Positions 4,246 to 63,655 of a stretch of 64,000 nt of DNA are shown here, in pieces. Origin of the DNA: Rhytidiadelphus loreus. Its lineage: Eukaryota > Streptophyta > Bryopsida > Hypnales > Hylocomiaceae. The DNA is taken from contig OX344763.1 in NCBI GenBank assembly GCA_947034895.1, forward strand, positions 20,863,001 through 20,927,000, read 5' to 3'. A program made the position numbers and the translations under genes. Below the pieces are notes generated by a model. That model searched no databases and had not been told where the DNA came from. It saw nothing but the letters and a program-made list of their open reading frames with translations. Position 1 is the first letter of the stretch, and each line of letters begins with the position of its first letter.

Positions 4246-5221
4246 TGAATGACACCCCTGGAGCTATTTCCATTCATATCTACTGTGATCACTGCATAAC
4301 GTTCAATGACCTTCATCCAAAAGTCATCCACTTTCATCTAATTTTCATCAAATGATTGCCTGATTTCGACCACATTTATCCAGATTTTGTTCAAATTTGA
4401 ATAAAAGTAAAATAAATATACAATGGTAACATTTGTTTTAGTTTGTTTTGTATGTAACATTGAGATATCTCTAATTGTGCATTCACTGAAGATTCTCTTT
4501 ATACCGCTGCAGAGCTTGATTTGAGGAGGGTTATACTAAAGTTGCATCATTGCTTTCAGACATATGATGGATTTGTGAGCAATTTCTAAAGCTGTAAATT
4601 GAATCGAATTATGAAAAATAGAATATAGGAGTTTATGATGTCATTCTTGGCATCACCAAAAAACTCTCAACAAGTAGAAATACCCCAAAGTTGTTTTGCA
4701 CTTTCATTGGGTTCTTAAGTGTGAAAGTTATGGATTTTCAATTGAATTTTGTTTCTATAAATTTTATTTAATTATGGATAAATTATTCTAAAAAATAAAA
4801 ATAAAAATAATACATAGGTATATCATAGAAAACATTTGGACAAGTGCACAATGACACACAAGTTGTTCATAAGTCGAACTTTGAAAAATTACATTGATCT
4901 TAAATTAAAAAAAGATAATAACAAAAAAATTATTGTATTTCAGGAGAATTTTCTTAAATTCAATTCATAATTGAGTTTAATATTCTCTAAAAAAATCAAT
5001 AATGATAATTTAATTATAAATTATGAAATTATCTAAAATGAAGTGAAAGAAATATAAAATGATTGCAATAAAAATTGTCATTTTATTTCTACAAAAAGAA
5101 ACAATTGTGTATTCAAATAGGAACATAAATTAAATGAAAACCAATGCTTTGTAAAAAGCATCAATATGACAACTAAATTCTCAAAATCATCTTAGTTTTA
5201 TATGAATGATAATCCTATATA
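4246..5221. repeat. AT-rich start of unit 2
   Basis: No gene seen. The segment 4250-4400 ('caaaagtcatccactttcat', 'ccaaattttgttcaaatt'-like) matches 20870-21040 and 32150-32290, marking the same point in three units just after the GLP pair. The rest is very AT-rich with A/T homopolymers. Confidence 0.6.
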
Positions 5222-6421
5222 TTAACTCCTAAAGCCATAAATTGCTTTTTTTTGGCAACGCAATTTTGGGCAACTCACTCTAAGTGGAGTTTTTATTTTT
5301 TTCTTTGAAATTTTCACACAACTTGTTGCCAAAGAGTGGCTTCAAAGCCCAACAATTTTCATAACTTTTGACTACATGGTTAAAAAGTTATTTGTATGAT
5401 ATGTAGTTTTTAGAAATTGGTGGGCAATTTGGGCACTTAAAAAAACTTCTTCAAAAATCATTGTTTTAAGAAATTAAATTTTGAAATTGATTTTCTAGAT
5501 TTATATATATGTGGAAAGCTTTAAATCATTCCATTTTGATTAATGAGATGAAAGTTATGAAGAGCATTACATGTGTTTTTAGACCCTTAGAAGGCCGTTT
5601 CATCCTTGTTCCCATTCCTGTGAACATTGTTCTAATGCCCAAAATATTTAATAATGAAAAAATGAAAAAAAATGAAAAAATATATTTAAAAAATAATTAA
5701 ATAATATGCTGCCGATGTGGCTATCGCCCGACCACATCAGCATGTTGATTTGGCAGCATGGGAACGCCTAGGAACGCTATGATAACTCATAGTCTTCTAC
5801 AGGACTGAAATCTCTTCTAATGTTTTAATTTGCAGGTAGTTATAGAATTTATATTCTAAGATAAACTTTCAAGTCCTTTATTTAGCTCAATTTTCAATAT
5901 TTTTTGAAAAAAATAAAAACACTCAGTGTAGATTGTTTATTACAAATTTACAACATTACAACCATTGGGATTGGCATTTTTCAATTCTATAAATAAATTG
6001 TTAACAATTTAGTATTTTGAATCATTCTTTACTTCTTTCTACTTACTATTTTTTCCTATATGTTGTACAATTCCAAATGATCTCAAAGTTTTTAAGCATG
6101 TAGCCTACTCGCCTTGAAGAATGAATCCAAACCATTACCACCATTTTAGACATTTTTCATACAAATGTGACTTTGTGAAGTCGGTAGCTACCCTATTTTT
6201 TCCAAGGGCCAAAAAAAGGATTTTTGTCACTTCAACTTGCAATCTACATAATGGAAATTTTTGAAATTTTTTCCACATCTTTTCAAACCAACATATTGCA
6301 AGGTTCTATGGTTCTATGTGACCAAAAGTGTGTTTTTTTCTAAAATTTTGGTACTTCTTCGAGAAATGGCAGTTTTGGAGAAATTTTGGTGAAAACATAG
6401 TCAAAAACCTTTAGGGGTTAA
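5222..6421. mobile_element. TTAA-flanked noncoding element (T2 family)
   Basis: Begins TTAACTCCTAAAG (5222) and ends CTTTAGGGGTTAA (6421), so it has imperfect inverted termini inside a duplicated TTAA. It is about 1.2 kb with no coding capacity. Related sequence lies at 47353-48291, the right part of the copy that was split by the giant element (for example 'ttttggcaac', 'gctttgaatca' and 'gttgtacaattccaaatga'). About 250 bases at 5560-5815 are extra relative to that copy and contain a local inverted motif around 5706-5760. TTAA target use recalls piggyBac-type MITEs, an inference only. Confidence 0.55.
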
Positions 6422-13600: not shown

Positions 13601-13912
13601 GAAAGCAGAGCCCATAGGTTGCTTAATTCCAGTAGCTGGAAGCATCAGAGCCGGTCCGGTAGTACCGCTGATGTGAATTGCATATAGGCCATTGGCTCCT
13701 GCACGTGCAGTGGCTAGGAATCTTTGTCCTTGCTTGAGCTCTAGAACCTCTTCACCATTCCTCACCGCAGTGAGAATGTGGACTCCGTTTGCCCGTAGGT
13801 CCCGGTAGCTGATCAGGCTCCGGGGGGCAGATGGAGCATACATTGCTTTCGCAATTTGGAGGGGGGTCCCCCAAGGCAAAATCAGTGTTGCCTGGCCCTC
13901 ACGGAACATCAT
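10691..13912 (-). pseudogene. copia pol: integrase, reverse transcriptase, RNase H
   Basis: Read from 13912 down to 10691 in one frame, with one in-frame TAG at 13172-13174. The N-terminal part has the integrase zinc-binding pattern (WHSRLGH...CATCSQGK), then RMDNA directly before the TAG, and EHSQNGLAE supplies the catalytic Glu after it. The reverse transcriptase carries YVDDLNLVG. RNase H shows SSNHSELIAF, EDNSACIAQ and TDRTKHI. The stop falls beside the second integrase Asp, so integrase would be lost unless read through. All other hallmark motifs look intact. The TAG can be explained by one base change. Confidence 0.9.
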
Positions 13913-15023
13913 GTCCCGTTTTCCTGCAATGGTTGTAATACCACATTTTTTGCCAGGACTCGGCTAGGCCGGAAAAGTCAAAATACTTTTGATCTCGCAA
14001 GATCGTATGTGTGGTAGCACTATCCAAGAGAGCAACATCAGATTGATCTACGGACTGTACGGTGCTCACCATATAATTCTCTACATCTGTCTCCTCTATC
14101 GAGGGGGCATCAAGGGTATGGGCCTCTCTCTGCCCAGCCTTAAGCTGCTGCAACTCCTTATACATTTTAGAAAGGTAATTAGAAGCTCTACAGTCTTTAG
14201 CAATATGCCCTACCCTACCACATTTGTGACATGTACGGGTATCCTGAGACTTTGAATTAGATGAGTAGGGTTTGTCAGAGATTTTAGACTTATCTCTAGG
14301 TTTTGATGAAGATGGTTGCTTTTGATGTTGCTTCCACCGCTGCTGTGTCTTCATGTCCCTTGGCCTACGTGTTGGTATCTCCACCGTGTGCGCTTCTTTG
14401 GCAGGCTTGGACTCAGCATTCTTCAATAGAAGTTGTTGTTGCTTTTCCGTAAGCAAAAGATAAGACATCAACCGAGAGTGAGTTTTAAACCTCATATTTC
14501 GGTACTGTTGAGCTAAAAGAGCAGAAGCAGGAGGGAAGGTGGAGAGAGTCTTATCAATGAGTTCCTTGTCGGTGATTGTCTCTCCACACAAGCGCAACTG
14601 GGCGGTGATTCGGTGCAGCTCTGCGTTGAATGCCAAGAGGTCAGAAAAATCCAAGACGCGCAAATGAATCCAGTCGTTGCGGGCTTGAGGAAGAAAAATT
14701 GTCTTCTCATGGTGAAATCTGGCCTCGAGCTGCTTCCACAATTCGGCAGGATGATCAACTTGAATGTATTGTTGCCGAAGGGAGAAGTCTAAGTGCCGTC
14801 TTAGAATAAGAAGCGCCTTCCACTTGAAAGATGATGGTTCCAAATGCAAATGATCGCCCCTTTCTGCCGTCAAAGTACCATCCAACTCCTCCGCACACAA
14901 ATAGGATTTGGCATCGATGCTCCACTCCAAGTAATTGCTCCCGTCAGCTTCCAACGCCTCAAAAAGTAAAGGTTGAACTCGTCCTTTTTCTCCCTTGGGA
15001 CGTTTCGCTACAGGCATCGCCAT
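13899..15023 (-). CDS. copia gag with start of protease
   Basis: 374 codons from the ATG at 15023. It encodes a plant copia Gag, with the zinc knuckle CHKCGRVGHIAKDC and then the aspartic protease active site DSATTHTIL close to the end. It overlaps the pol frame but in another phase. The coding strand has six A at 13951-13946 where copy 2 has AAAAG, so a one-base insertion probably created the frameshift. Programmed frameshifting is less likely, because copia elements usually use a single frame. Confidence 0.85.
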   Translation of the reverse strand: MAMPVAKRPKGEKGRVQPLLFEALEADGSNYLEWSIDAKSYLCAEELDGTLTAERGDHLHLEPSSFKWKALLILRRHLDFSLRQQYIQVDHPAELWKQLEARFHHEKTIFLPQARNDWIHLRVLDFSDLLAFNAELHRITAQLRLCGETITDKELIDKTLSTFPPASALLAQQYRNMRFKTHSRLMSYLLLTEKQQQLLLKNAESKPAKEAHTVEIPTRRPRDMKTQQRWKQHQKQPSSSKPRDKSKISDKPYSSNSKSQDTRTCHKCGRVGHIAKDCRASNYLSKMYKELQQLKAGQREAHTLDAPSIEETDVENYMVSTVQSVDQSDVALLDSATTHTILRDQKYFDFSGLAESWQKMWYYNHCRKTGHDVP

Positions 15024-15128
15024 CGATAGAGAAAACTAGGACAGCCGACAGCAAAGGCTCTAAAAACAAGAGAGAATGAAAACTAAAATAAAAGTTGAGA
15101 GATCAGGGAGAGTCTCGTGCTGATAATG

Positions 15129-20810: not shown

Positions 20811-21645
20811 ATATTATATTTGAAGTTTGAACTTGTGATATTACCCACAATTATGGAAGTTTGAATGTGGTATTTTATATGATATCACTATGTAATGTAG
20901 TGTACACTATTTCCATTCCAAATAGTGTGATCATTACTGTGTAACTTTCAATGACCATTCAAAAGTCATCCACTTTCATCAAATGATTGCACTAATTCAA
21001 CCACATTTATCCAAATTTTGTTCAAATTCAATTATTAGAATGAGCTAATCACTCACTATTCAATATTTTGCAATGATTGAATGATTCAAACGTAGAGGTA
21101 ATATTTCTAGTAAAAATTGGCTTATTGTCATCTAAAATGATGGAGATATTTAATACCGTAGTACACTTATGAGGAGGTTCATGGTGGGTCAAAAGTTTAC
21201 GTAGTGAATTGCATGGTGGGATAAACAAGGAAGTCACCATTTGAAATTTTGACTCATTTTTGGAGATACTTTCAATGTTTGAACATTCAAAGTCAATTTT
21301 GTTAAATGTTGTGAATATTCATATTTACAAATTTCTTTGGAAAAAATGAGATAATTCTTGAATATATTTTTACCATTCATACACCATATTTTGGCTTCTA
21401 TGAATCTATGATCTTACATGTGCACCACATAGAATCATTAAAGAATAAGCACCCATAACCAACTTTGCATAAATATCAACACTTTAAATGATTGTATGAG
21501 TGTAGAAGGATGATATGATAAAGCTTCAATAAAGGAAGTCATTGGACAAATTTCAAGAATAAATGTTATTATGTGGAACCACACTTGCACTGCTTAGTGA
21601 ATTTTTTGCAACATGTGTATGTACTTGATTTATAGGTATATAGAG
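20811..21645. repeat. Unit-3 leader, AT-rich duplicated segment
   Basis: Matches 32080-32420 and 48300-48760. At 21146-21149 a plain TTAA sits where unit 4 carries the TTAA element that hosts the giant transposon. No supported gene. Confidence 0.6.
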
Positions 21646-32423: not shown

Positions 32424-32447
32424 TTAACCCCAAAAGGACCAACATGG

Positions 32448-32474
32448 CAGAATTCGTAATTTTTGCACTTGGCC
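32448..32474 (+). repeat. Left TIR of giant element
   Basis: 27 bp, identical to the reverse complement of 47326-47352. Inside, GCACTT recurs at 32465 and 32485. Confidence 0.85.
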
Positions 32475-32849
32475 GTTTAAAATTGCACTTATGAAGCATT
32501 CGGACAAAAGTGACCTCATCTCCAAAAGGGGGGGGGTCATTTTCCAATTATTGATTTTTTGTACAATATGAAATCGTAGAATGAAACAAAAATTCTTCTC
32601 CATGCAAATGATTGTATTTTTATCACATTCTTTGCATTCATAGTGCAAAATACAAGTTTTTTTTAAGAATCCACAACTTCACAAATGCTTTTCAATACTC
32701 ACTTTTAAAATTTATAGAGCAATATTACAATTCTCCAAGAAAGTACAAATATACTCATACTGTACTAGGTAAAGCTGCAGTTCAGAATTGCAATGCTTGT
32801 GCACTACATGTACAACTACTACAAATCCTCCTACATGTAATAACATGCT

Positions 32850-35800
32850 TCAATATGCATGTATGTCATTCTCCAATCGTTCATTGTCCAACTCCTCCAT
32901 CTGCATTGCAATATATTCCAACAAATGAGGTTTTGCTAATGTCGGAATATTGACTTCCTTCTCTGTAACCTCTCCATGAACTAGTACATTATTCCGTACC
33001 ACAAACCCACTTCTTGATTTTGTAGGTATATCTTCCCATGAAAATATAGCTGCTTCTTTCTCCACCCATCCATGTCTCTCACGGGACGGCTCCCAAGATC
33101 CTTCCAAACAATTAGCATACCGTTCTTTGCTTGAACGTCCTCCTATACTAGCTCTGGCACTCAGAATTGGCCAGTACCATATCACTTTCATCTTGGTTGC
33201 CCACTTCCGTTGACCGAACTCCAAAATCTTCCCAATATAAAATGGCACGCCTTCTTTTACTTCAGTTGGCTCCACAGTGAGGGCTACGAACTGTCCAACT
33301 CGTAGGTCTTTCTCTGGTTCAAACACTGGAAATGGATCTTCTTCTTCATTAGTGCTCCGAACTACATTTGTACTTGTCCCTTCATTTATCCTTCTTCTTT
33401 TTGGAGCCCTTGTTCCAAGAGGTTGTTTCGTTTTGTTCCTTCGCGGACCAAAGTAGCCTTGTGCTTCTGGATTTGGCATTGTTGCCATGATTGAATCCAC
33501 TGCTGCTGACATCATGTTTGACTCTTCACCTGTAGTTGGAACTGTATTCAACTCTGTATTCTTTCCTTCATTCACTTCAGTTATTGATGGCCAGAAAGGT
33601 AGTTCGCTCTGTACTGTTCTATCCATATTGGGAAATTCTCTGAGGTGCTTCATGAACTCTTCTGTGTCCTTCATCGCTTGAAGGTTCTTCTCCACATTTA
33701 TTCCCCTCTCCACACATTTTTCCTTGTACACAATGAAATCTTCCAACGCCCTGAGCTCTCTCTCATCCGCTGCAAATACCTCTGTTAGAGCCGGTTTCTC
33801 CATTGGAGTAGGTAAAGATTGCAAACACATGTGCCCCTCTGTCGGACCCCACGCATCTTTGCTGAAGTGCTTGTGTTGAACTCTGGGCATTCCATTTTCC
33901 ATGTAGAACCTCATGTGGTGTGGAAATGTTATCCCTGTTAATTGGTCCCCTCCCCTCAAAAGGTGTGGTGTGATAAAGGACTTCCAATCTCGAACGTTCT
34001 CAAGTTTTCGTGCACTCACAAAAGACTCTGTATATGATGTTCCTTTCTCAACCAAAGATAACATCTCGTCAAGAGAGTCAATATTGGTCCTCTTCAAAGT
34101 ATTTGAAATAATACTGAATCGTTGGTCTATGTCTTCATGGGTGTGCCCAACGATGAGAAAACATAATTGCACCTCCTGAAAGTAACCCATGCCCACTAAT
34201 GCTGCACATAATGCAAACATGTATATGTTCTTGTTCTCGCGAGTTGTGTTGTCTGCTTGGATTCTTAAAGTTGGTGGTAGCTTTCCTTTCCGTCTTCGAA
34301 CATCAGATATCACATGCATTATTGTGGTTATCACTTGATTGTTGTCATGCTTGTGGTGCGCGTCAATCCACACATCTGCATACAATCCAATCCCATGCAC
34401 TAGTACTCCACATAGATGAGTTTTCACAAACCGAGACTCTATGTTCTTCACAGTTTGCCTCATCTTCGGAACCATCATCGTATTCTGGTCCATACCATCC
34501 ACTATCAAACACATATATAAGTCTGGTGTAATCATTGCTAACCTCTTGAACAACCAATAATCGCGTCTCTCTTCCATTTGATGATGAATGTGTATAATAT
34601 ACCACTTCTTTATCTCCGCACGCGTTGCTGCATTTGTTGTACCTTCCATTCCACACTTATATTCCCAACAATGGTAACACTTTGAAAATCGGGAGTACAG
34701 TGGAATCTATACGTGTGAAAATTCCTTGCGCCACAATCGATGAAAAGAAGCGAGCGACAATGGCTCTCCATCTACCATCTTCTTCACTTCTTCATTGACA
34801 TAGTGAAATACATCCACCTTTGTTGTGTTCATGGGTAACAATACCAAAGGTACTATGCTATTGTCAACCTTCCTTCGTACTTGCTGGTGAGGTTGAGTGC
34901 ATCCAGCTTCTTTCACAAATTCTTCAAAGCTCTGACGTGCTGCAGACATTTTTGCTCCTTCTCTCAAATGACATGTATTTCCGTGTACCGCAGACACTCT
35001 TCCATAAACTTGTTGTGATTGCTTCAACTGCTTGAACCGCCGTTGCGAATAACCCAATGCTACTACATAGCAAGCATTGCAAACATGGATGCCATCCAAT
35101 TTAGTCTCATATTTGTCCCTCTTCCCTCCTTCTTCTCTTTTGTAGAAAGCACTCAACATTTGTAGCATCCATGTTGATCGAACCTCATACTTTTGCCCCC
35201 ATGCCATATATCTTTGATTCAAAATGTACTTTTTGTCTATCTTTGTCAAGCAGTTCTGTTTGCATCCGCCTTCATTTTTGGCTGTTAGTACACTTTGCAA
35301 AGTCACTTTCTGAGTCAATGATTCTCCTCTTAAACGTGGTCCTCGTTCTCTTCTTCTACGGGTACCCATTGAATAACTTCGGGTACTTCTGCATTCCGGT
35401 AACCCATCCCTCACTTCTCCACTATCTCCAAAATTGTTCAGCCGTTCAATTCTTGAAGATCTTTCATGATGGGTACTACTAGTACCGGGAGTATTGTGAG
35501 ATATTTCTGATGGACTGGGATTATTGTTGCTCTCGTGGAACTCGAATTCTGGTGTTGCTACTGGAGAAAAGGTAAAATTGTGTCCTCCTCCTGCTTGCAT
35601 GTTAATTGGCCTTCCCCCTCCTTTGATACGAATTCTTGATTTTTTCCAACGAATCACCAACCCCAAACACTGCCCGAGACGCTCCCCTACCAATTCTCCA
35701 GTCCACACAGTTCTATCCACAACATGCAACACTCGCACAACAACTTCATGAGGGAACAATTTAACATGATGCAACTCCATCCCACAAACAATACTCTCCT

Positions 35801-36020
35801 CAATGAGTCATGTTCCAACAATTGCTCCCAACTCTGAGATGAGTTCTACGGTGTCTTCCCTCATCTGTGTTGCCACTTCATGCCTTTCAACATCACTGTC
35901 TCTAAATAGAATTGCTCGACAAGCTCGGACTATTCTGTGCCCAACACTTCCTGGGGTAGGCCCTCCTATTGTTGCATTTGTTGGTAAGGCCACTAGACTA
36001 CCGAAACCTCGAGCATCCAT
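32850..36020 (-). pseudogene. DUF7869-like transposase candidate, two in-frame stops
   Basis: One frame of 1056 codons from the ATG at 36020, interrupted by TGA at 35808-35810 (codon 71) and TAG at 34707-34709 (codon 438). Sequence resumes in phase each time, and SRFSKC after the TAG fits the family. The middle has a Cys cluster (CNACY). The core carries VDGMDQ (about 507-512), QADN...REN (about 588-597) and VGHTHEDIDQ (about 624-633). These acidic residues recall an RNase H-like DDE/D site, as expected of DUF7869 proteins. The C terminus has a basic stretch (PKRRRI) and a BAH/SH3-like chromatin-reader-type segment (VGQFVAL...SWE). A splice-acceptor-like TTGTAG/GAG upstream (about 36049-36060) could add an exon. 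It may act on the element's own TIRs, by inference. Confidence 0.65.
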
Positions 36021-38226
36021 ATTCGTCAATTCTTTCACCCAAGGTTTCTCCTACAATACCATTTACATGTAAGATTCACAGTACCACAAAAACAATTCAA
36101 AAAATAAAAACTTCATTTTCATACTTCAGAAACTTATCAAGTAGAAGTAAAACCAAGATTGTAAGAAACACTTCATTGTTAAGTGCCTTCAGATGGGATT
36201 GAAAGAATATAATTCCAACGATGTGATTGTTCTAGCAAGCACACTGAACCATTTAAAAAAAAATGGAATTTTTTTTCAATATTACATTCTGCAATGAATT
36301 ATATAAGTTCTTTTTCCAAAAAAATGCTTACATTGCCCAATAAATAAGATTGTTCATAACTTTCACATCACTAATCCAAATGGAATGAATCAAAACTTCA
36401 GATGTAGACAAAACATAATCTTCTACAAGAAAAAGCAAAAAAAAAAAAATATAATTTTTTTTCAATATTTTTTATGTTGCCATCTGAGTTCAATTCTTGC
36501 CTTTTTTTGGTATAACTGTTGCTACCAAGCACCGATGGGAATAAAAAATGTATTCCCATAAAACTTATTTGCTTTTCTGTCTTCAATGAAAGTTTCAAAA
36601 CATTCAAAAATTATCCCACAAGGAGACAATGGGACTTCAAGGGTTCACTAAAGATATTAGCATGTAAAGTCAGTTCATGTGTGTTTTTACCAATTCTAAT
36701 TGCATATTAAAGTGTATGTCCATCAATCAACCACTTAAAAGTTGGATTTGAATATTTGACTAGTAAAACTTATCAAAAGTTTGTTTAGTAAATTTACATT
36801 TGAGGCAGTCAAGTGGAATTGACATGTATGCTTCGGTTATTCATATTTTGTGAAGCTAATAATAATTCATTATGAATCATTAGTTATGACCTCCTGCCAT
36901 GTATTCCCTCTGCGCCAAAACGATTTTCTTCTATTTTGTTGACATTTATTTTATGCCAATTTCATTAATCATATTGAGAAAGCTTCCTAATTTTATATCA
37001 CTAGAATCAATAAAGAACATTTCATGTATTCATTTCATCCTACATGAAAAATGCCACAAGGAAGTGTCCACATGACCTACTCAAAACCCTTAAAAGAACA
37101 TGAAGTCTCGCATGAATTTCAAATTGAACTATCATTCATTCATAATCTGACTTGTAATGCTTTTATTATTCATGGTTTCGAGCTCATAACTCATTTCGTG
37201 CCATCGTTGAATCTCTAGAACAATTGCCAAAATATTACTAATGAGTACAAAGCACGCTCACTGTCCATCAAAAAACAGTATTTAAGGGAAAAATTTCGAA
37301 TTCAAAATAATATTTTTGGTACTCTAATAGGTTATCTATGATTTCTATAATGAGTTCATTTGAAATGTGTTTGATATTTCAAAAACAAACATGCCAATAA
37401 CCACAAACATGAGTGGTCCTACTTTGGTAACAAAGTTGCACTAGTGAAGTAGGCTGCAAATTCTGCCCAACAAGGCAGAAGCCATTGTAACAAACGCCTC
37501 GAGCCTTCAAGGTCACTCCTTAGCACAAATATTTTGTGATGTATTGGACAATCACATAAAAAAATTCTTTTTGTAATGCAATTGAAGATTCAAGAATGTC
37601 CTCAATTACGTTCTAATTATAATATAAAACTTAATAAGTTAACTAAGTGTCAAATTGCATCAATTATATGATTTATATCTCAATATTGCTTTCAATTAAG
37701 GTTCAAAAATACATTTAATTTTGTGTCAATTATTTCGATTTCAGCATTATATTGTAGCAAGCCAAAGTACACTTAAAACAACAGCTAAACAAGTTCAGAG
37801 ACTCTCATAAAGCAATTTTTCCCACTTTATGCACTAACTTTGTAGAGGCAGAGGTAAGTTTACTTTCTTAAATACAAACCACATAGCTCTCTAGCAAAAT
37901 TGTATCACTCCATAAATTTCAAAATTGTGAAAGAGGAGAAATTTTTTTATTACCCCAACATAAAACACTGTTCTTTTGGGTATGTACAACCATAATCAAC
38001 AATGCCCCAAATGTTACACATACACTTGGTTAAAAAAAGGTCAACATCATGGAGATTTCGGTTACAAAACATGTACACAATCAAACTATGAGAGTTTAAC
38101 ATGGTGCCTACTGCTGTTTCTTGATTCACCTGTAAACAACATTTTGAAAGTTCATAACTTATTCATATGGAGTCTGTCTAAATTTTACTTGTTCTGATTT
38201 CTCTTCAAAGTCCCAATCATATCCAA
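36021..38226. other. AT-rich interior of giant element
   Basis: No gene recognised. Contains long A/T runs and a few short ORFs (36398-36607, 37976-38197) without recognisable motifs. It could hold promoter or intron sequence for the divergent frames; nothing specific is seen. Confidence 0.4.
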
Positions 38227-38510
38227 TGTTTTTTTTAACGTTTTTCATGTAATGGCAAAGTGGCAATATTAAATGTTCTGGTGGTGCTCTAAGTTTCAAC
38301 AGTCATCCACGTACTGAAAAAAAAATGTGATATTATGTATCTATGATTCTATTTTCATTCACAATGTGGTGATTTCATCCAAGATTTTCCTTGAACTTGA
38401 AGTTCTATTGGTGATTTCATCCAAAATTTTACTAAACATTTTCTATACCTTGCTGCTCATCTAAATTTTTTGGTGCTTCTAAGCACCAAATCGCCAGAAA
38501 AAAATAACAC
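38227..38510. repeat. Dispersed AT-rich repeat, copy 2
   Basis: Relative of 17521-17810, so the sequence is mobile and occurs both inside the giant element and in the GLP2-GLP3 spacer. Noncoding. Confidence 0.5.
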
Positions 38511-38744
38511 TGATCATATCCATTAAATAATGAATATAAGTAAAATAAAAGTAATATGAGAAGATAAATGCAGCCTCATAGTGAAGGACTCTCTATTTTA
38601 ATCTTTACTGATGGACATATGACATTTACTTATGGAAGCAAGTTAAATCTTCATTCCACTATGTGCATTCTTCCTAACTCCAATCACATTGTCTTGCTTG
38701 AAATTGGCAGAATAATTAGCCCTAGAACGCCTGGAATGTCATTC

Positions 38745-38803
38745 TTTCGGAGGGCAATGGCGTTCGGAGGGCAATCGTATGCGTTCGGAGGGCAATCGTA
38801 TGA
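38745..38803 (+). repeat. Short tandem repeat, unit about 21 bp
   Basis: Three copies of 'ttcggagggcaat' spaced by 17-21 bases. It lies in an 82-codon ORF (38568-38816) with no recognised family. Confidence 0.6.
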
Positions 38804-39059
38804 ATTATTAGTTTAAAATAAAAATTCTCCACGTAAATGATGTTTATTGAGTGGGAGCCAAACTACATAAATAAAATGCAATAAATTTCGGGAAAATTGA
38901 TATTTTTTAATTACAATTAGAAATTTTTATGTATTTTCAATGTCTATTGACTCCAAGGCCAAGTTCAAGGCCAAGGCCAAACCCATATTGTTCGACTTCT
39001 ATCCCTTTTTCTCCCATATCTATGACAAATAACCCTTTCTCCACAAATAACAAATAACA

Positions 39060-39235
39060 AATATATTTTTCTCCCATATCTATAACAAATAACAAATAAC
39101 AAATAACAAATAACATCCAAATAACAAATAACATCCAACAACAAATAACATCCAACAACAAATAACATCCAACAACAAATAACATCCAACAACAAGCAAC
39201 ATCCAACAACAAGCAACATCCAACAACAAGCAAAT
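39060..39235 (+). repeat. Minisatellite, 'aacaaataacatccaac' type
   Basis: More than ten imperfect copies of a 7-17 bp motif, shifting from 'aacaaat' to 'aacaagcaacatcc' toward the right. It gives the minus-strand hydrophobic shadow ORFs (for example 38937-39341), which are not genes. Confidence 0.75.
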
Positions 39236-39238
39236 CCA

Positions 39239-39262
39239 GACCCCGCGCAGTTGCGCGGGGTC
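39239..39262. other. GC-rich perfect hairpin
   Basis: 11-bp arms (GACCCCGCGCA and its complement) around a 2-base loop. It separates the minisatellite from a GC-rich block with CT-repeats. It could be a cruciform or a transposon end; no CTAG/CTRR Helitron end follows it. Confidence 0.55.
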
Positions 39263-39339
39263 GACAACGTGGGGCGGCGGGAGTATACCTGCGGAGGGGG
39301 GAATACCGTCGGCTCTTTTTCTCAGGTCCTCGTTCGAAC

Positions 39340-39660
39340 ACTGCTGCTGTCTGCTCTCCTTCGCCGCAGCTGTCTGCTCTGCTCTCTCTCTCCTCCGCCG
39401 CAGCTGTCTACTCTGCTCTCTCTCTCCTCCGCCGCAGCTGTCTACTCTGCTCGCTCTCTCCTCCGCCGCAGCTGTCTGCTCTGCTCGCTCTCTCCTCCAC
39501 CGCAGTTGTCTGCTCGCTCGCTGTCTGCTGCTCGCTCGTCCACTGGCTGCTGGCTGCTCGCTAGCCCGCTGCTGCTCGCGTCCGGCGCAGGTACTCTCCT
39601 CCGCCACTGCTCGCTGGGCCGACACTACTGCTGTCTGCTCGCTGGGCTGCCACTGCTCGC
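39340..39660 (+). repeat. GC-rich tandem repeat, unit about 39 bp
   Basis: Four to five copies built on 'tctcctccgccgcagctg' and 'ctgctcgctc', decaying rightward. It is strikingly GC- and pyrimidine-rich within an AT-rich element. It might be the promoter or leader of the plus-strand frame at 42268, but the 2.6 kb gap and the lack of a clear splice model leave that open. ORFs over it are compositional. Confidence 0.6.
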
Positions 39661-40139
39661 TGTATAGTGTGTAGATTTTAGGGTTTTAATTGAGGGCCTG
39701 TTTTTCTTTTGTTGTTGTATGCGTTGTTGGCTTTGTTGTGTTGTTGCCGTTGTTGCCGTTGCGTTGTTGTTGTTGCGTTTTTTCAGTTGCGTTGTTGCAG
39801 TTGTGCTTACTGGAGTCACAATCGAGTTTTCTTCAAGTATTGAATGCATGATTTTACAGGACGCAGCACCCCTGAAGAAGCGCCTATTCCGACGCAGCGC
39901 CTGTTCCGTTATAGATCTGTAGGTCGTTTTTGGGAGCCTTGCTGTCATCATCTCTGCGGAAGCATTTTTAGGATATTGTAAACTGCTTGGACGATTTCGT
40001 GGTTGCCCGTGCTCTTGTGTTGGAACTCGTGTGCATTACCTTTCTGATCTAGCATTTCTGTATGCAAAATTACAAGTTTCATGACTACATTCTGAGCTCA
40101 TATGAACGACATAATTGAGATAGTGAAAGAATACCATTA

Positions 40140-41345
40140 CCTCAGATATCTAAATTGAACAAGAAGTGAACTGTAACCACAGAAATTCAATCTAGACATG
40201 GTTGAGACCACAGTGGAAAATAAAACACAGCAGTATTACTCATAGATCGAAGGATTATAACTTGAATTGTAATGACTGATCATAAGGATGTTAACTCTAT
40301 GAAACTATTTGATGTCTTTCAATAGTATTTTCATTTGCCTAATTTTAAATATTGGTCACCAAAAAAATCTGAGTTTGTAACTTATAACATGCATAACTCC
40401 AATCAATTTACAACTTCTTAAAACCTATTTTTAAAAAATAAATAAATGAATTTTTAATGTGATTTTTCTTCCAAGATTTGGTGTATTTGAGGCTCATTCC
40501 AAGAATTCTCAACACTTAAAAAATAAAGATTTGCAATGGACACCCTTGCATAAAATCTTGAATAGAAAAAAAACATTCAATTATTTTCAGATTTGGACTA
40601 TTGATGCTAAAACTAAACTTTGAAGAATGTTATTCAAAAATATAAACTACTAGAAAAAGAAACTTGGTTAGATTTTATTTAGCTTCAAAGTACTGTCGGC
40701 ACCAGAATTTTGTGCCTAAGGCATTCAGGGGTTAAATCCTTAATGCCTCAATCCATTTTCAAATTTTGAAACATTTTTTATTATATCTTTGTACAATAAT
40801 ACCATTTACCAAAATTTCATGAAATTTGGCATAAAAGGAAGTTGTATTTTTAAGATTCAAGTGTTACATTGGATGAATGAGAAGGTAGTTGGATGAAATA
40901 GTGTCTACAAGCCCTTTGTTCATTGTCCAAAATATGGACGTCGGAGCACTGAATTGTTAAAGTGTTGAAAGTCAATAGAATATAGAGAAAGAAACAAACG
41001 AAACAGAGAATAGAACATCAATGCTCATAGAGACAGAGACATCAAGTGATGGAAGTCACACTCAAATGCAACCAATTGAATCTGGAACCAAATACATAGA
41101 ATAAGACTATATTTCTAGAACGATTTGAAATACCTAAATAAAATAAAAGCAATTAGGGGAGGCTTTGTCAGTTTGTAGTGAACAACACAGGTACTACACG
41201 GTGCTCCGTGTATAGAGTGCATAGCCCCCAAATCACCATCTTTTTCTACTTTGCCCAGTAGCTATTATTAGAAGTGGGCAAATTTTCATATTTTCTTATT
41301 GACAATTGACAAGTGAAAGAAGGTTCCAATGCATCAAAGAACACA
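40140..41345 (+). repeat. 1.2 kb dispersed repeat inside giant element
   Basis: Collinear with 62660-63655, outside the element. Shared blocks include 'aatctagacatg', 'aacatgcataac', 'tatttgaggctcattcc', 'gcaatggacaccc' and 'attattaga'. No coding sequence. In this copy the small TTAA element at 40732-40960 is inserted. Confidence 0.6.
40732..40960. mobile_element. Small TTAA element (T1 family), degenerate
   Basis: TTAAATCCTTAATGCC at the left and GGAGCACTGAATTGTTAA at the right. It matches the copy at 49535-49770 ('gattcaagtgttacattgg', 'atatggacgtcggagc'). The dispersed repeat at 62660-63655 lacks it. Confidence 0.55.
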
Positions 41346-42267
41346 AGTAAAAGAATTTTCTTTTCATTAACCATGTATGGAATCTTCATAATTATAGAAT
41401 TTTCTTATTAAAAGTTATAGTAAAAGGGAAGTTGCAAAATTAGGTTTGGAAGGAATCCTATAAATGCAGTCAGTAATACTTGAAACATTTAGTAGTAATA
41501 AACCAAAATATAAATTGATTCTAGATTCATTGTTTGTGTGCTAGAAGAAATATGTTGTATTTGAATATTCAATTCAATTTTGTATTTATGAACATAAAAA
41601 ATGTCACATGTATGACAAAAGTATTGCTCACTAAATAGAAGAAGGTGATATTATGAATTCATATGAAATTTTCATGTAATATGACTTGAATAGATAAGGT
41701 ATGGTACAACATGGTTGATTTCTATTGTTCTAATGGAGTTTTTGTAGTTCAAAGTTTGAAAGCTCATTACTTATACAATGTTTTTTAGATTTCGTGGTAT
41801 ATGAAAATTTTATATAATTATTATAAGTGAGTGCAATGCGTATGCCTTATGTGGTTTGTGAAGTAACTTTCTTACAGTCAGGCTTTTTTTTTTGTAGTCA
41901 AATGTTGTTTACTTTTTGTGTAGTAGATATTCTTTTAAAGTAGAAGATCTAAATTGTACTAATGACTTATGAATGTGAAGTATGTGGGAAATAATAAATT
42001 TCTTTTGAGGATCAATGAACTAACTTTCTACATATATTATGGAAATAGTATGCATTCCACACATGCCTGTACTAGTGTACATAATGATTTTATATGTACA
42101 TGCAATGAAAAATGAATTTGTGAATTTCAAAAATGAATGCATCCAGAAGGCATTTTTTGGTTTCTTAAGACTTTTAGCAGTGTATTCTTCAAAATATAGG
42201 AGACAATCATTGCTTAGTTCTTGTACTTATACTTTTGTATTTCATGATGATTACCAACAGAACCATT
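41346..42267. other. AT-rich region upstream of the long plus-strand frame
   Basis: No supported gene. A possible promoter region for the frame at 42268; several TATA-like stretches exist but none stands out. Confidence 0.3.
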
Positions 42268-45200
42268 ATGGCTATCAAAACATATAATGAATGGGTTGAA
42301 CACGGATGGTGGCTTGTGGCGATTGACACAGCAACGGATGCAGCAACAAGCACTCCGACAGGAATGTTGTAGATCACAGAGCACCCTATGCGGGAAGGGA
42401 GGCATTGGACAGCTTTGGATATGGAACGTGGGAAACTGACATCCATTTCCACTGCACCTGACGATTTCATATTTTTGAATGTTCAAATGGAAGTAGGCAA
42501 CAATGCGAGGTACAAGCTGCAGAGGAATTTGATGATGGCACCAATTCCACCTTCTTGTTTGGAGGTAGAGAAACCCATGAGGGTCATACAAAAACTTGCA
42601 GAGCATTGGAATATTATGCCAGAATTGCTTCAGAATGCACGTAGTGAAGCAGTGCAAAGGATCATGAAATTGAGTCTAGAAGATGTTTTAAGAGGGAGGC
42701 GATATGTGGTGGATGCCTTGGCTTATGAAGAGATGCAAAATACAGATCCCTCCAATGTCAGAGATAAAACTCCGCCACGTGAACCTGAAGAAACGGATCC
42801 TGTGTACAGGATACTTGCAGCTCCGTTAAACGTGCACTGGTTGCTTGTTCAAAACCGTGTTAGAAGGCGTTCACCACCACGAGCAGTTCAAGAGAATGAG
42901 TCCTCTCCTATTTCTGTTGAGCAACGAAGAGTGAGAACCAAGCATGGAAAAAGTCCACACGATGGAACAAGAGGGAGGTCATCATCTAGTGCAGGCACAT
43001 CTAGGGGTGCTGTTGAACATGGTGGTTTAATCTCACCACGTGTTGAACCAAGCACAGTGATGTCTACAGGTGCAGCTATCAACACCTTTCCAGTTTCAGC
43101 ATCCATAGGAGGAGAGTCATCCAAAAGAGTTGCCCAACGGAAGAAAGGACCACAAGGTTCTAAAGCATCCAAAGTTGTTAATCCACGTGGAAGAGGAAGA
43201 GGAAGAGGAACTGTGAGACAAGTAGATACTCAAATGCCACCAAGCACCGAACATGGTATAGGAGAAAGGAATACACGCGCAATAGAAGAGCATGTTGAAC
43301 ACGATGAAGCATTTGAAATTGTGGAAGAATCCGGAGAAGAAGAAGAAGAAGAAGAAGAAGAAGAGACCCATAGAACTCACGTGTCTACAAGTGTTGGTCC
43401 ATTTGTAAGATTTCCTTCAAATGATGAATTTCTAGCGGGATACATATAGGGTATGGGCTTGGTTTTCAATGCGAGGATTGAAAACATTCGAGCTGTTGGA
43501 CACGTGGAGACGAATCACCGAGCTTTGACTGATAGGCGTGTGTCAACCACGTATAAGCGACTTTGTGGAAGAGAAGAGCCTAATATGTCACCTCTAACTT
43601 TACGTCCAATTGCTTATATTGTGGAAGGAGTGAACATGGAAGGTGTTGCCCAACAAAGGGAGATCCCATTTTCAAACACTGATGCAGTGAAAGAGTTTAA
43701 CGCTGCATACCTACATAATGCTCGAGCTGTTGCAAGAAATCCCGACATGTCGAAGATCAATTGGTTGGAAAACAACATCATTTGGGAGCCAGTTGATGGT
43801 CAACATGTGGTTGCAGCTTGCAAACAAGGTGAAAGGCAGCACATAGCAGGGTTGTTGGAGGATGAGGAGTACTTTAACATATTTGCCAGAAGGAAAGCAC
43901 GATTTGTTGTGTACAATGATTCGAAGGTGTATATAGAAGCGTCTGTGCGAATAAATGCTAAAGAATTTGAGAGAGAGTTCTACACAACAATGGAAAAAGA
44001 TCTGGTGAAGCTACGAGCAATTTGGGAAGCTTGTGGGAGACCTAATCCACAATCACGAGCAGATGATGCACAACGAGCTAGAGCAGTAACGATGGCAGCA
44101 AGTGCGTTGCATTGGATGAGGTCATCTGTGCAGAATGTATCGTTGGGGGGTATTTCTAAAAGGATGGCACAGTACACCCGCCATGCATGGCAGGAAGACG
44201 AAGTTGCGTATGAAGCTGTTCTACAAGTTTGCCGGGATTATGAAGAAGGACTATTTTGGTATAGCAAAGATGATTTGAAGAAGTGGAAGAAGTATGCAGA
44301 TCAGAAGTCGTTGGATGCAAATGTTGATGTGAGGGAAAACAGAAAGAAGATGGAGAGGCTTTGGCTGAGGCCACTGGTGAGGGTTCCTAAAGTAAATTAC
44401 TTGCGGTTGGCAAAAGAAATGTCTGCTAAACCTCTTGTTGATGGTGAACGTCCACAACAAAGATTTTTCTTCAACAATGCTAGTAGCAACACTCCAGCAA
44501 AGGGTACTTTGGCTTGGGCAACTGAGCGTATTCAACGAAGGGAAGTAGTGCGAAATGCAATACGGTGGTTGATGGTCGAATCAGGGCAAACACATCCGAA
44601 GACTATGGACAATTTTTTCCTTATGAATGTGCGAAAATTTGAAGGACATGACCGCAAGCAGTTGCAAGTGCTTGTTGAAGTAGTTGACAAGAAAATGAAG
44701 ATAGCTTGGTCATCTCCAACAGTGAAGACTATCGAAGCGCTGCGGAGGTTTGAAGCTCTAATACCTCCAATGATCAAAGATCATTATGTGAATATCGAAC
44801 GTGGTGGATCAGGGTACCACGGGTATAACAAAGATGTGACGAACTTGGATGAGGCGAGCTGGGATTGGCAGTTGACTGTACCGTGTAATACACATGAAGT
44901 GAATGTTGGAGGTGTTTCAATTCGATGCGGAGGATGTTTTTTTACAAAAGGTGTTGTGGAATTGGGAATGCCTTGTTTGTGGATATTTGATTGTAGACGG
45001 TGCGGGGCAAAAGGAGAGGATGAAGCTTGGACAGACGTTGAGTACAATACTGCATTGCAAATAGTGCAACAGTGGATGGCAGGCATTCACAAGTGAACAA
45101 CAATATTTTTGTTTCCACCAGGAACGTATTTCGAAGAGAAGATGAGAGAGAATATGGTATTGCCATCAGCGTGTACATGGCGGAAAGGAGTTTGGGTGTT

Positions 45201-46878
45201 TCAACCACAAACAAGGTCAACATATGTATATGACCTACGACACGAAGGCCGAACTGATCGGAGTATACAAGCGGTGGGTGACATTGCAATTGTAATGGTA
45301 CATCCTAATGCATCGAGGGTGGCAGACAACGTACGAGGAGGTCTTCACCAAGTACCTGTAGTATTTATAGATGCATGGAGAAAAGGAAGGATGCCTTCTA
45401 CTGTGGATCCAGTGGAGAGGACCCCTATGGAGTTGCAAAGGTTGGTTGCGTCATATTTACCTGAGAAATGGGGGCTTGTTACAGTGGGCATTACATCAGC
45501 CATACCAAGTATACTGCAATCAGCTTTTGTGGGTACGGAACTGATTGTATTGGATGGTTCAATAGATCGAACACGTTTTCTATACAACACATTGTAGGAA
45601 CAATTTCATGCAGGAATCCAAATGCGACAAGCTGCAATGCTAATGAATGAAAATGCAGAGATAGGAGACCCTCAAATTAGTAGTGCACCATCTGCGCAAC
45701 GTTCTACAACGCATGTACAACAATCTATGGCAGAAGAGGAGGAGGAAGACAGTCTTGGAGATGAGGAAGAGGATGTCGAAGACGGGGAAGATTTGCATTC
45801 AGAAGATACGCCGATACGAGAAGGATATGAAGTAAGGCAACCTCGAAGCCCAAATGACCCAGAGTATGTCGAAGGGGAGGAGGAAGAAGACGAGGATGAG
45901 GTAGAGTATGACAGTGAAGAGGATACAGAAGAGACATCTACCTCAGATGACGAATCATTAGATGAGTCTTCTGATTCATCAGAGGAAGGGGAAAAGGAAG
46001 TACATAAAGTTGTCTTTGAAGAGAAGAGAATGAAAAGTATTGAGAAGACAATTGAGGTTCCTAATGCATCAGAGGAGTTAGAGACTACGAGGACACTACA
46101 ACATGATGTTGCTCAAAGCATTGTCTCTTCAACGCCAGAAGTTCAAAAAGAAGATGGGTCCTCAAATGATGCAGTTCTTGAGGGAGAGACTGTTACACAA
46201 GAAGAAGTTCTGAAAGACGTGGATGTAGAAGAAGTACAAGGAAGTCTTCATATTGCAAGAAACGAAGGAAGTGAAGGCACTCATGGAAGAATGCACGAGA
46301 TGCGAAGTGAACTTGGAGTACCTGCAGAAGTGGTGACATCTATGGAAGAAGAAGCAATAGAAAAAGAGAGGACCATATCAGAGGCAAGGACTCCAATTCA
46401 TGCAATGGAAGAGGTGGATACAGAGATGGAAGATGCGGTGAAAGAATCATGTGAAGAGGTTTTGGCTTCAGCATCTGCGACTACAACTTCGCAAGGTACA
46501 ACAGTGATTGGTTTGACAAATGAAACGCATTTGAGTATTATGTCTTTTGCGTGGGCCTCTCAAGAGCAAGCGATGACGGAAGGAGCGGATGGACTTTATT
46601 ACGATCAAGAGGGTATTAGATATCGTCGTAGTGGAACTGAGGGAGAATATAGATTTAAGCAAGTAACATCAGTTTTGGAGGAGACAATGCACATGGACGA
46701 AGAACCTTCTCTAAGAGCTCAAGTTGTGGTCGATACGACTTTGGATTACGATGAAGTACAAATTCCAGATGAGGTTCATGCAATACTCACTACACGATCT
46801 ATAAATAGTACAAGTGGTGAAACACTTGGAAGTCAATCTCCGAGGGTCATTGCAGAGACACCAGAGCCATTAGAGTAG
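42268..46878 (+). pseudogene. Long unknown frame (1536 codons), four in-frame stops
   Basis: A single reading phase from the ATG at 42268 (MAIKTYNEWVEHGWW) to TAG 46876-46878. It is interrupted only by TAG 42370 (codon 35), TAG 43447 (394), TGA 45094 (943) and TAG 45595 (1110). No frameshift is seen. Order: N-terminal globular part; Ser/Arg-rich then basic linker (RGRGRGRG) and a run of ten Glu near codon 380; a large conserved-looking core with EPVDGQHVVAA (about 507-517), loosely like the ParB/sulfiredoxin VDGxHR motif; a zinc-ribbon-like set CGGC...CRRC (about 887-912); a segment with VVFIDAWRKG and LIVLDGS; and an acidic tail rich in Glu/Asp. I do not recognise the family. Location in the giant element suggests a transposition accessory or cargo protein. 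Confidence 0.6.
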
Positions 46879-47319
46879 TATATTGACAAAGTTCATATGG
46901 AGAATGTTGTTTAGTTTGACAAGAACAAAGTTGGACATCTTGTATGAGGATTCCTTTGTTCTACTGTAATACTTCAATGATAATAAATGGATGGTGTGCT
47001 TTTTCTTTCCAACTAAGGACTAATGTTTTAGAATATAATGAAAATGATTGTTTAAAAATGAAGTGAACAAGGAACATCAAGTGTGTTGTATATATCAACA
47101 ATTGAGCTTTTGAATGATTCCATATTGGAAAATTACAAATTTGTACAATTAGTTCGGGCGTTTTTAAATAACTTTTGCATGCAAGTGTACTATAGGTAGT
47201 AGAAATGGAAGGTTAATATCGTACAATGAACAAGGAAAAAAATTGAAAATTACTTGTGAAAATGGTGTACCAATTTTTTTAAAGTGAAGAAAATGCACCT
47301 ATTTTGCAGTACAATTAGT

Positions 47320-47335
47320 GCACTTGGCCAAGTGC
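47320..47335. repeat. Perfect palindrome overlapping right TIR
   Basis: GCACTTGGCCAAGTGC, 16 bp. The left end has only the half site GCACTTGGCC. Possible transposase-binding site. Confidence 0.6.
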
Positions 47336-47352
47336 AAAAATTACGAATTCTG
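47326..47352 (-). repeat. Right TIR of giant element
   Basis: 27 bp, perfect inverted match to 32448-32474, followed by tgtt and then the direct repeat caacatg at 47356-47362. Confidence 0.85.
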
Positions 47353-48291
47353 TGTTCAACATGCATTTTTTGGCAACATAGAAATTTTGGGCAAGTACAT
47401 GTCAACATGTGACTGGAGGTTTGCATATTTTAGGCTAAAATTTTAATAGAAGATGGGAACAAGGAATATCTTTCATATGCAGTAAATTTCATGACATTTG
47501 GAAATATGAGTAAAAAGTTATGGCCTAATTTGTTACTTTTTTTCCCGGCCGAACATGCCGGGTAGTCGGGGTAGATCATAAAAAAACACTTCTTTTAGAA
47601 ACAAAAATTTGAAATTGGTTTTCTAGGGTTATTTATTCACAGAAAGCTTTGAATCAATCCATTTTGATCAAAGAGTCAAAAGTTATGAGGAGTTTTAGTT
47701 TGTGGGTAGTTATGAAATTCCTAAACCCTAAAATAAGCTTTGAAGTCTTGTATCTTATTGAATTTTTAATATTTTTTGAAAAAAATAAAATCATAGGATG
47801 TAGATTGTTTATTACAACATTGCAACCATCGGGATTGGCATTTTTCAATTCCATAACTAAATTCTTAACAATTTTGTATTTTGAATCATTCTCTACTTCT
47901 TTCTACTTACTATTTTTTTCCTATATGTTGTACAATTCCAAATGATGTGAAATTTTTTTAACATGTAACCAACTTGTCTAGGAAAAAGAATCCAGAGAAG
48001 CACCACCATTTTGGACATTTTTTCATAGAAAAGTGAGATTGTGAAGAGTAGCTGCCCTGTTTTTTGCACGGCCGAAAAAATGATTTTAGTGAATTTGAAT
48101 GCCTATATCTTGCAATCTACGTGGTAGAGGTTTCTGAAATTTTTTCCACATCTTTTCTAACCACCGTACTACAAGATCCTATAGTTACTTGTGTCCAAAA
48201 ATGTTCTTTTTTTAAAAGTTGATACTTGTACTAGAAATGATAGTTTTGGAGCATTTTAGGTGAAACCTTAGTCAAGGAACTTAAGGGTTAA

Positions 48292-49534: not shown

Positions 49535-49770
49535 TTAACCCCTTAATGCCTTGATCTTTTTTCTAATTTTGGCACATTTTTGCTCATATCTTTCTACAAA
49601 AATATCATTTATAGCAATTTGATGAAATTGATCATTAAGGAAGGTTGTCTTTTCAAGATTCAAGTGTTACATTGGATGAATGAAAAGTTAGTTGGACAGA
49701 ACAAAGCCTCGAAGCCCTCTGTTCATCGTCCACAATCCACAATATGGACGTCGGAGCGCTTAAGGGTTAA
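49535..49770. mobile_element. Small TTAA element (T1 family)
   Basis: TTAACCCCTTAATGCC at the left and GCGCTTAAGGGTTAA at the right, 236 bp including both TTAA. The empty TTAA is in units 1 (676-679) and 2 (10046-10049). Unit 5 has a different TTAA element at the same site (56942-57880). Confidence 0.75.
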
Positions 49771-56941: not shown

Positions 56942-57880
56942 TTAACCCCTAAAGTCCCATTGTCTCTTCAGGGAACAATTTGGAATTCAGGCAAGTTTCT
57001 ATTGGCTGAAATTTTACCCTAATTTTTTTAAACTTTTAAAAAAAATAGAAAATCTGATAAGCTTTGTGAGAATAATTTTTTTATTTCAATCGGTGCCCGG
57101 AAGCAAAAGTTATACCACAAGAAGCCTAGGAACTAAACTCGGCGGGTAGCACAAAAAATATTGCAAAAATTCAAAATAAATTTTTTAAAATTTTTTTTCT
57201 CAAAGATTATGTTTTTTTCTACATCTGAAGCTTTTATTCATTCCATTTTGATTAGTGATGTGAAAGTTATGAACAATCTTATTTTTTGAGCAATCTAAGC
57301 ATCTTTTTGAAAAAATAACTTGTAGGATTCATTTTAGAATGCAATTTTCAAATTTTTTCAAATTTTTTTATTTGAGAAGGTTAAGTTTGCTTACTAGAAT
57401 AATCTCATTGTTGGGATTATTGTATTTCAATCCCATCTAAGAGCTATTAACAATTTAGTTTTTCTTTCAATCTGGACCTACTTCTACTTGACAATTTTTT
57501 GAAGTATGACAATCAAGTTGTTATTTTTGAATTTTTTTTCCTAGACTCCCAACTCAATTCTTCAACACAATAAATTTTTAATTCAAATTCCATAGTGCAC
57601 ATTTTTTCCACAAATAGCAATCAAAGTCATCTAAAATTGCAATCTGACTAGTGTTAAAAAAAACTTGTTTTTTAAACTTTGAATGCTCCTATCTCTCAAT
57701 CTGTATGGTCAAACTTCATGAAATTTTACCACATAATCTCAAACAAGTAAATTTCAAGATCCTACGGCTTAATTCCAAAAAAAGTATTTTTTTCTTTCTT
57801 TTCTATTGGACAAATGCAGTAGAAATGACAGTTTTGAATAGTTTTTGACAGAACAATGACCTTACAACTTTAGGGGTTAA
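56942..57880. mobile_element. TTAA element (T2 family), 0.94 kb
   Basis: TTAACCCCTAAAG at the left and CTTTAGGGGTTAA at the right. It occupies exactly the TTAA used by the smaller element in unit 4. The interior matches 7250-8058. Noncoding. Confidence 0.75.
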
Positions 57881-62659: not shown

Positions 62660-63655
62660 TCATATTTTCTTGAATTGTAACCGTATAAAATCAATCTAGA
62701 CATGTTAGAGATCACATTAGAAAAGAAAACACAACAATATCTCTTATGGATTGAAAGATTATAGTGTTTGATCATGAGGGTGTTAAAACTGTGAAAGTGA
62801 TTTGCAGTCTTTCAATCCTCTTTTCACATGTCAAATCTAAAAAGTTGGGCACCAAAAAAATATAAGGTTAAAGGGCTTAACATGCATAACCCCAATCAAT
62901 TTATGACTTCTCAAAATATACTCTACAATTTTTTTAAATGAATTTCTAATGTGATTTTTTCTTAAAGATCTAGTATATTTGAGGCTCATTCCCAAGAGCC
63001 CTCAACACTACAAAAAGTCAAGATTGCAATGGACACCCGTGCACAAAATCTTGAATAGAAAAATCATAATCAATCATTTTCAAAATCAGATTTTTGAAGC
63101 TAAAACTAAACTTCAAAAAGATTTTTCCAAAAATATAAACTACTAAAAATATTAATTTAGTAAGATTTTATTTAACTTCAAAATTTGGTCAAGGACACAT
63201 TCTGTCCTCAAGGTCATTTAGGGGTCATTTAGGGGACACATTCTGTGCAGTAAATAAGTTATGCTTTTTCTTTTAAACCTACTTATTGCAGTGATGGGTA
63301 CTGTCGGTATTTGAATACTTACCCCATTTTGGAGGGGACTGTAAGTTCCACGCGGTGTCAGTCCATCAGCTCTAATTTCATGCTTTGCAGGCGTACTTCA
63401 TTAGTTCATAATGCTTGTGAGCTCGTTTGTCACTTATACAGTGGGAACATCTCCAACCTTTCTCGGTAAGCAGGCAGGGCCTAGCGTCCAGCGTGCCCTC
63501 TGTTGTTTTGGCCCCTAACGTGAAGCCATTTAAGGTACCAAACTGACACTTTTTGCTATTGTGCCTAGTTACTATTATTAGACTGATTCAATTTTTTCAT
63601 ATATTCTTGTTGGCAAGTGAAAGGAGGTTTCAACACATCTAAGAATGAGACATTT
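62660..63655 (+). repeat. Dispersed repeat also inside giant element
   Basis: Collinear with 40140-41345 but without the TTAA insertion. Either a free copy of the repeat or the edge of another large element beyond the window. Confidence 0.55.

Follow-up and report, generated by a model that had tools for sequence, protein, structure and literature searches.

The 64,000-nucleotide stretch of the moss Rhytidiadelphus loreus analysed here (contig OX344763.1, positions 20,863,001 to 20,927,000; hereafter the window) contains, at 32444-47356, what appears to be a single giant DNA transposon with two divergently oriented genes, namely a DUF7869 (domain of unknown function) gene on the minus strand and, on the plus strand, a partner gene whose product is predicted to combine a ParB-like and a DNA methyltransferase-like fold. 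The following features delimit the element:

32444-47356, no strand: whole element, 14,913 bp with the termini placed at AACAC (32447-47355 in an earlier note on this DNA)
32440-32443, no strand: left putative target-site duplication (TSD), CAAC (alternatively CAACATG, 32440-32446)
47357-47360, no strand: right putative TSD, CAAC (alternatively CAACATG, 47357-47363)
32448-32474, plus strand: left terminal inverted repeat (TIR), exact 27-bp core; outermost 4 nt ATGG
47326-47352, minus strand: right TIR, exact 27-bp core; outermost 4 nt AACA (reverse complement)

The perfect 27-bp TIRs 14.9 kb apart that the earlier note had described are borne out: the two cores are exact inverses separated by 14,851 nt, the window holds no further match to the TIR when up to three mismatches are allowed, and none of 100 shuffles contained two. 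When extended to 31 bp, the left and right repeats agree at 28 of 31 positions.

The minus-strand gene comprises the following features:

32850-36020, minus strand: DUF7869 gene, very probably encoding the transposase; 1056 codons, start set by alignment to P0001
35808-35810 (TGA) and 34707-34709 (TAG), minus strand: nonsense codons
33858-34436, minus strand: match to PF25273 (DUF7869), E 5.7e-51
34497-34499, minus strand: candidate catalytic Asp 1, D70 of window:32853-34706:-, in IVDGMDQ; D in 49 of 51 rows, 2 gaps
34251-34253, minus strand: candidate catalytic Asp 2, D152, in IQADN; D in 48 of 51 rows, 2 N, 1 gap
34131-34133, minus strand: candidate catalytic Asp 3, D192, in VGHTHEDIDQ; D in 51 of 51 rows

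The PF25273 match scores 173.3 bits against a Pfam cut-off of 26 bits. In the predicted model of the DUF7869 protein, the three near-invariant aspartates fall on RNase H positions, and the model matched DDE/D recombinases in 49 of 50 VIA rows. This match, the three conserved aspartates and the TIR-bounded relatives described below (three of the eight related loci have both TIRs) make it very probable that the DUF7869 protein is a transposase, one with a predicted RNase H fold and DDD site, in agreement with the earlier suggestion that it is or was a transposase. Homologues are numerous (512 matches), and among the 120 listed are proteins of many animals and of a charophyte alga. A weak BAH-like match in a PDB sequence search (7xpk, E 0.32; residues 488-536, window 33165-33299) allows the possibility that a BAH-like beta domain near the C-terminus serves as a chromatin reader on the transposase. 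A profile match of the N-terminal part to a Plasmodium reticulocyte-binding protein in the PDB (E 0.00092) was taken as spurious.

The spacer and the partner gene are laid out as follows:

38746-39803, no strand: tandem repeats of the spacer between the divergent genes; putative role judged by position only
39105-39229, no strand: 17-bp tandem repeat, 7.3 copies, within the spacer
39354-39526, no strand: 34-bp tandem repeat, 5.1 copies, within the spacer
42268-46878, plus strand: partner gene, 1536 codons, predicted ParB-like and methyltransferase-like
42370 (TAG), 43447 (TAG), 45094 (TGA) and 45595 (TAG), plus strand: nonsense codons of the partner gene
43450-44052, plus strand: predicted ParB/Srx-like domain with VDGQHVVAAC at 43792-43821; boundaries via alignment to P0139
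44860-45594, plus strand: predicted beta-class methyltransferase-like domain, motif IV preceding motif I, both degenerate
44986-45006, plus strand: motif IV position, FDCRRCG, degenerate
45478-45504, plus strand: motif I position, VTVGITSAI, degenerate

The earlier note had given the length of this second frame correctly and had left its four internal stops unmentioned. By predicted fold alone, the partner is identified as a ParB plus methyltransferase protein that has lost its catalytic and cofactor motifs: the N-terminal domain matches the ParB/sulfiredoxin fold (taken from the model of the homologue P0139), and the second domain matches the fold of beta-class N6/N4 methyltransferases with the motif order IV before I. 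Beta-class methyltransferases carry (D/N/S)PP(Y/F/W) as motif IV and a glycine-rich motif I. In the 47-row alignment of the partner family, counted over the rows that cover the respective positions, PP is missing from motif IV in 24 of 24 and the FxGxG loop from motif I in 11 of 11. Since these motifs are gone, the partner of the window lineage has probably lost methylation, and it probably kept DNA binding. Searches by sequence added little: Pfam and sequence profiles yielded no ParB family for the window partner family, the Pfam matches of the partner all lay below the cut-off (best Beta_helix_2, E 0.002), the PDB gave no match by sequence, and the best that PHROGs offered was a single weak match (E 0.0018) to a family without known function. 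At its C-terminus, the partner family has a short conserved motif, DG(F/Y)YY...(V/I)R.(T/R)R.G, which a long acidic tail precedes (window 46588-46650, P0137 and P0139-P0143).

Both genes are decayed, with two internal stops in the DUF7869 gene, four in the partner gene and no frameshifts in the frame as read. The open frames are nevertheless taken to be real, because alternative frames of the two stretches hold 50, 69, 78 and 108 stops. At the six stops, the closest homologues carry W three times, Q twice and G once; the five stops at W or Q positions suggest decay by G-to-A or C-to-T changes. The mixture of TAG and TGA and the location of the stops at W, Q and G positions of the homologues led us to reject an alternative genetic code. 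The window copy is dead, and if it was already broken at its last move, this move needed the proteins of intact copies.

Related elements were sought by scanning the DUF7869 alignment against contigs of prokaryote genomes, which yielded 11 loci, eight of them (L001-L008) from one metagenome-assembled genome (MAG) labelled uncultured Trichormus. Such a Trichormus is the symbiont of the fern Azolla. The second gene of these loci looks intron-split, and the eight contigs are taken to be contaminants from a eukaryotic host. TIRs of 33 bp are present at both ends of L001, L002 and L008 (25, 26 and 31 identical bases), giving element lengths of 7722, 7803 and 6042 bp, respectively; the other five contigs begin within the element, placing its left end outside the sequence. 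The right TIR was found in seven of the eight loci, that is, not in L005, and over the 21 pairs of these right ends the mean identity is 67 % within the TIR vs. 30 % outside. Within matched stretches, the DUF7869 proteins of L001-L008 are 25-35 % identical to P0001.

All five loci that are long enough (L001, L002, L004, L006 and L008) contain the same divergent second gene; L003, L005 and L007 stop too early to show it. Its first part is ParB-like by eye (YQYFVIGGSHSAEARRQL, NNDNDYRQKMSSIE), with no match in Pfam and no sequence match in the PDB, and its second part, a methyltransferase, matches PF01555 (E 4.1e-8 for one exon of L001 and 2.9e-13 for the joined exons of L002). Motif IV reads IADIPYGF in all five. 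Motif I is DLFSGTG in L001 and L002, whereas L008 has DLFSGTS, and L004 and L006 end before it. The suggestion in the earlier note that a partner protein travels with DUF7869 is supported in the relatives by this recurring gene pair; however, the window partner itself is not detectably homologous to the partner of the relatives, for a profile comparison of the window partner family with their ParB and methyltransferase parts gave no significant match, cross-domain controls being no worse. Judged by layout and fold, the two are likely to be one family. The relatives share with the window element the DUF7869 gene, the divergent methyltransferase gene, the TIRs and the 3' ends of both genes pointing towards them; they differ in their size (6.0-7.8 kb for those with two visible ends), their intact motif IV and the palindromes in their spacers. 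In the three further DUF7869 loci, which come from other MAGs (L009, L010 and L011), tblastn detected no counterpart of the second gene of L001 and L002. Scans of viral contigs with DUF7869, the window partner family, the ParB part of the relatives and the TIR pattern gave no match, and viral structures gave nothing at E ≤ 0.001.

Palindromes of 20-21 bp of the type AGTCGATGCnnnGCATCGACT occur in seven of the eight loci (L001-L007; in L005 as the variant ATCCGATGCAGTGCATCGGAT), with one to ten perfect copies per locus. They lie in the spacer separating the genes or, on contigs that break off there, directly upstream of the DUF7869 gene; L006 carries ten copies at 2552-3034. The eighth locus, L008, is without palindromes; relative to L001, it also lacks the spacer together with the 5' portion of each gene. 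These palindromes are candidates for the binding sites of the ParB-like protein. The DUF7869 gene on the marine MAG contig L011 is accompanied by eight CTCGATTACGCGTAATCGAG-type palindromes, including two one-base variants (positions 55-301, 1517, 2470 and 2539; an upstream array of five, the other three at intron-like sites), and these were left out of the support for the partner.

The relatives also help to place the termini. The heptamer CAACATG that the earlier note had recorded on both sides is indeed present at both flanks (32440-32446 and 47357-47363), and a common 7-mer at an offset of 0-4 nt occurs at random points 14-16 kb apart with a frequency of 0.0023. As a 7-bp duplication, however, it leaves the element with unequal ends, namely a surplus G at the left and TGTT at the right. 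Among seven right ends of the relatives (L001-L004 and L006-L008), four have a TIR that terminates in GTGT; in L003, L004 and L007 it terminates in CTGT, TGGT and ATGT, respectively. The base that follows is T in all seven, and at the left ends A precedes ACAC or ACAT in three of three. Because of this conserved T and A, AACAC is the simplest terminus. It yields exact 4-bp duplications abutting both ends in the window (CAAC/CAAC) and in L001 (AACA) and none in L002 (TTTT/AAAT) or L008 (GTAA/CATA), i.e., in two of four copies, the model having been picked after the ends had been viewed. A 6-bp alternative would read TAACAA in L001 and has one mismatch in the window. A TSD of 4 bp is more likely than the 6-8 bp that had been expected.

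The element was previously said to sit inside a repeat whose uninterrupted relative lies at 5222-6421. On the right this holds, as 47366-47697 aligns with 5248-5569 and 47692-48291 with 5822-6421. On the left, the junction resembles 5221-5247 across only about 25 bp, and beyond this the flank matches other copies (4268-4540 and 20825-21153). The claim of an empty site appears right in kind, its left-hand support being this short stretch. Two repeats in the spacer recur in the window at 76-78 % identity, 36088-36604 at 57021-57539 and 40167-40960 at 62671-63182 and 49535-49770. Because these repeats recur elsewhere in the window, part of the 14.9 kb probably consists of later insertions.

Taken together, we read 32444-47356 as one inactive cut-and-paste transposon with a DUF7869 transposase and a divergent ParB/methyltransferase-like gene that function as set out in the following, and assign this reading a probability of roughly 0.78. 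The DUF7869 transposase would recognise the TIRs of about 31 bp and excise the element, and reinsertion at a staggered cut would generate the 4-bp duplication (CAAC). From a common central spacer, the partner gene would run the opposite way and yield a product with a ParB-like and a beta-class methyltransferase fold. In the relatives, the ParB-like protein may bind the element's own DNA, with the spacer palindromes as its natural binding place, while the methyltransferase may mark this DNA (at N6-adenine or N4-cytosine) and in this way protect or regulate the transposon; in the window lineage, the protein would bind DNA without methylating it. The TIRs, the repeated flanking bases, the gene arrangement, the modelled folds, the conserved and lost motifs, and the TIRs and second gene of the relatives are observed; TIR recognition, excision, DNA binding, methylation and the regulatory role are what we infer from them. 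A more far-reaching version, in which DUF7869 elements form a lineage of eukaryotic transposons with a partition-like system whose ParB-methyltransferase loads on parS-like palindromes of the element in the divergent promoter and coats or marks the element, the window branch having retained the binding protein and lost methylation, is speculative and on balance unlikely. No palindromes were found in the window spacer, where the tandem repeats at the corresponding place are non-palindromic, which speaks against a shared binding-site mechanism.

The alternative that fares best would leave the mechanism unchanged and lower its novelty. It holds that the element is a member of the named Sola superfamily, probably of Sola1, with DUF7869 as the Sola1 transposase and the partner as the accessory gene of Sola1-1_Ec32, and the balance tips modestly in its favour. 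According to PMC12477816, the 21.5-kb element Sola1-1_Ec32 of Ectocarpus encodes a protein of 1104 aa with a ParB-like and an N4/N6 methyltransferase part opposite the transposase, the same layout as here on a likewise giant DNA transposon; for green and red algae, the authors of that paper refer to further cases (Iyer 2011, Petroll 2025). The earlier description of an unrecognised gene pair is only partly right in this light: a transposon with a ParB-methyltransferase gene has been published before, and the window element is a variant with a degenerate methyltransferase, the likeness being drawn from the published description. Sola elements in general, as described in PMC10741241, have a DDD transposase, 4-bp TSDs, variable termini, TIRs of 11-1124 bp and sizes to more than 15 kb, and are present in a moss; the window element offers DDD candidates, a putative 4-bp TSD and a length of 14.9 kb. 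DUF7869 may well be the Sola1 transposase by analogy. This link is drawn from published descriptions, and the element is not assigned to Sola here. Against it, the TSD is exact in only two of four copies among the window element and its relatives, and the 6-bp reading of L001 is possible. The word DUF was not found in the main text of PMC12477816, the literature searched contained no paper on DUF7869, and PMC12477816 was the one relevant paper on ParB and transposons in the library searched.

It is quite unlikely that the locus is a composite in which the DUF7869 gene and the plus-strand gene derive from unrelated elements or host genes and came to be nested between inverted repeats. The spacer repeats common to other parts of the window, the fact that no second copy of this family came to light and the missing sequence link between the partners would fit such an origin; yet the related loci show the same divergent gene pair within TIRs with a methyltransferase in the second gene, the window partner has the ParB and methyltransferase folds by model, and both genes are similarly decayed and stop 376 and 448 bp short of the TIR cores, measured to their inner edges. 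A partner that still methylates by means of unusual motifs (DCRR in place of DPPY) is about equally unlikely: the family lacks FxGxG and PP in every row that covers these positions, whereas the relatives retain IADIPYGF and DLFSGTG or DLFSGTS. A chance inverted repeat around a cluster of DUF7869 host genes, with no transposon at all, would suit the single copy in the window and is highly improbable in view of the shuffles, the duplicated bases at both ends and the TIR-bounded relatives.

Other known systems resemble the element in parts. IS3EU and GingerRoot, which according to PMC10045372 have TA..TA termini always and mostly, respectively, together with a TSD of 6 bp (in IS3EU usually), do not fit the termini of the element (AACAC at the right, ATGG at the left). 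Fungal TET/JBP transposons likewise carry a DNA-modification enzyme as cargo but, as described in PMC12730594, act in methylcytosine oxidation with an unrelated enzyme and belong to different lineages of transposase. The folds predicted for the partner's two domains are those of bacterial ParB and of CcrM-type methyltransferases; these are separate proteins in the matched PDB entries, whereas the window partner combines both and is without the catalytic motifs.

Outside the element, the window holds a broken Copia-type long terminal repeat element at 10691-15035 on the minus strand (RVT_2, E 4.5e-52, gag_pre-integrs and zf-CCHC; TAG at 13174-13172). In addition, units about 85-95 % alike are repeated in both orientations at 1635-2411 and at about 15.9-16.8, 18.8-19.6, 27.3-28.1, 30.0-30.9, 50.6-51.4, 52.7-53.6 and 59.3-60.3 kb. 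As the unit at 1635-2411, the only one tested, encodes a cupin (PF00190, E 2.1e-31; the opposite strand is also open), these units are probably a cupin gene cluster.

With its TIR setting and its predicted DDD recombinase fold, DUF7869, so far a 'domain of unknown function', becomes a testable transposase. The second gene would add to Sola1-1_Ec32 and the algal cases another instance of a prokaryote-type, DNA-binding and methyltransferase-like protein carried on a transposon, and the palindromes of the relatives name a candidate binding site for it. A branch that has lost the catalytic motifs and nonetheless kept the protein may offer a handle on the role of such accessory proteins.

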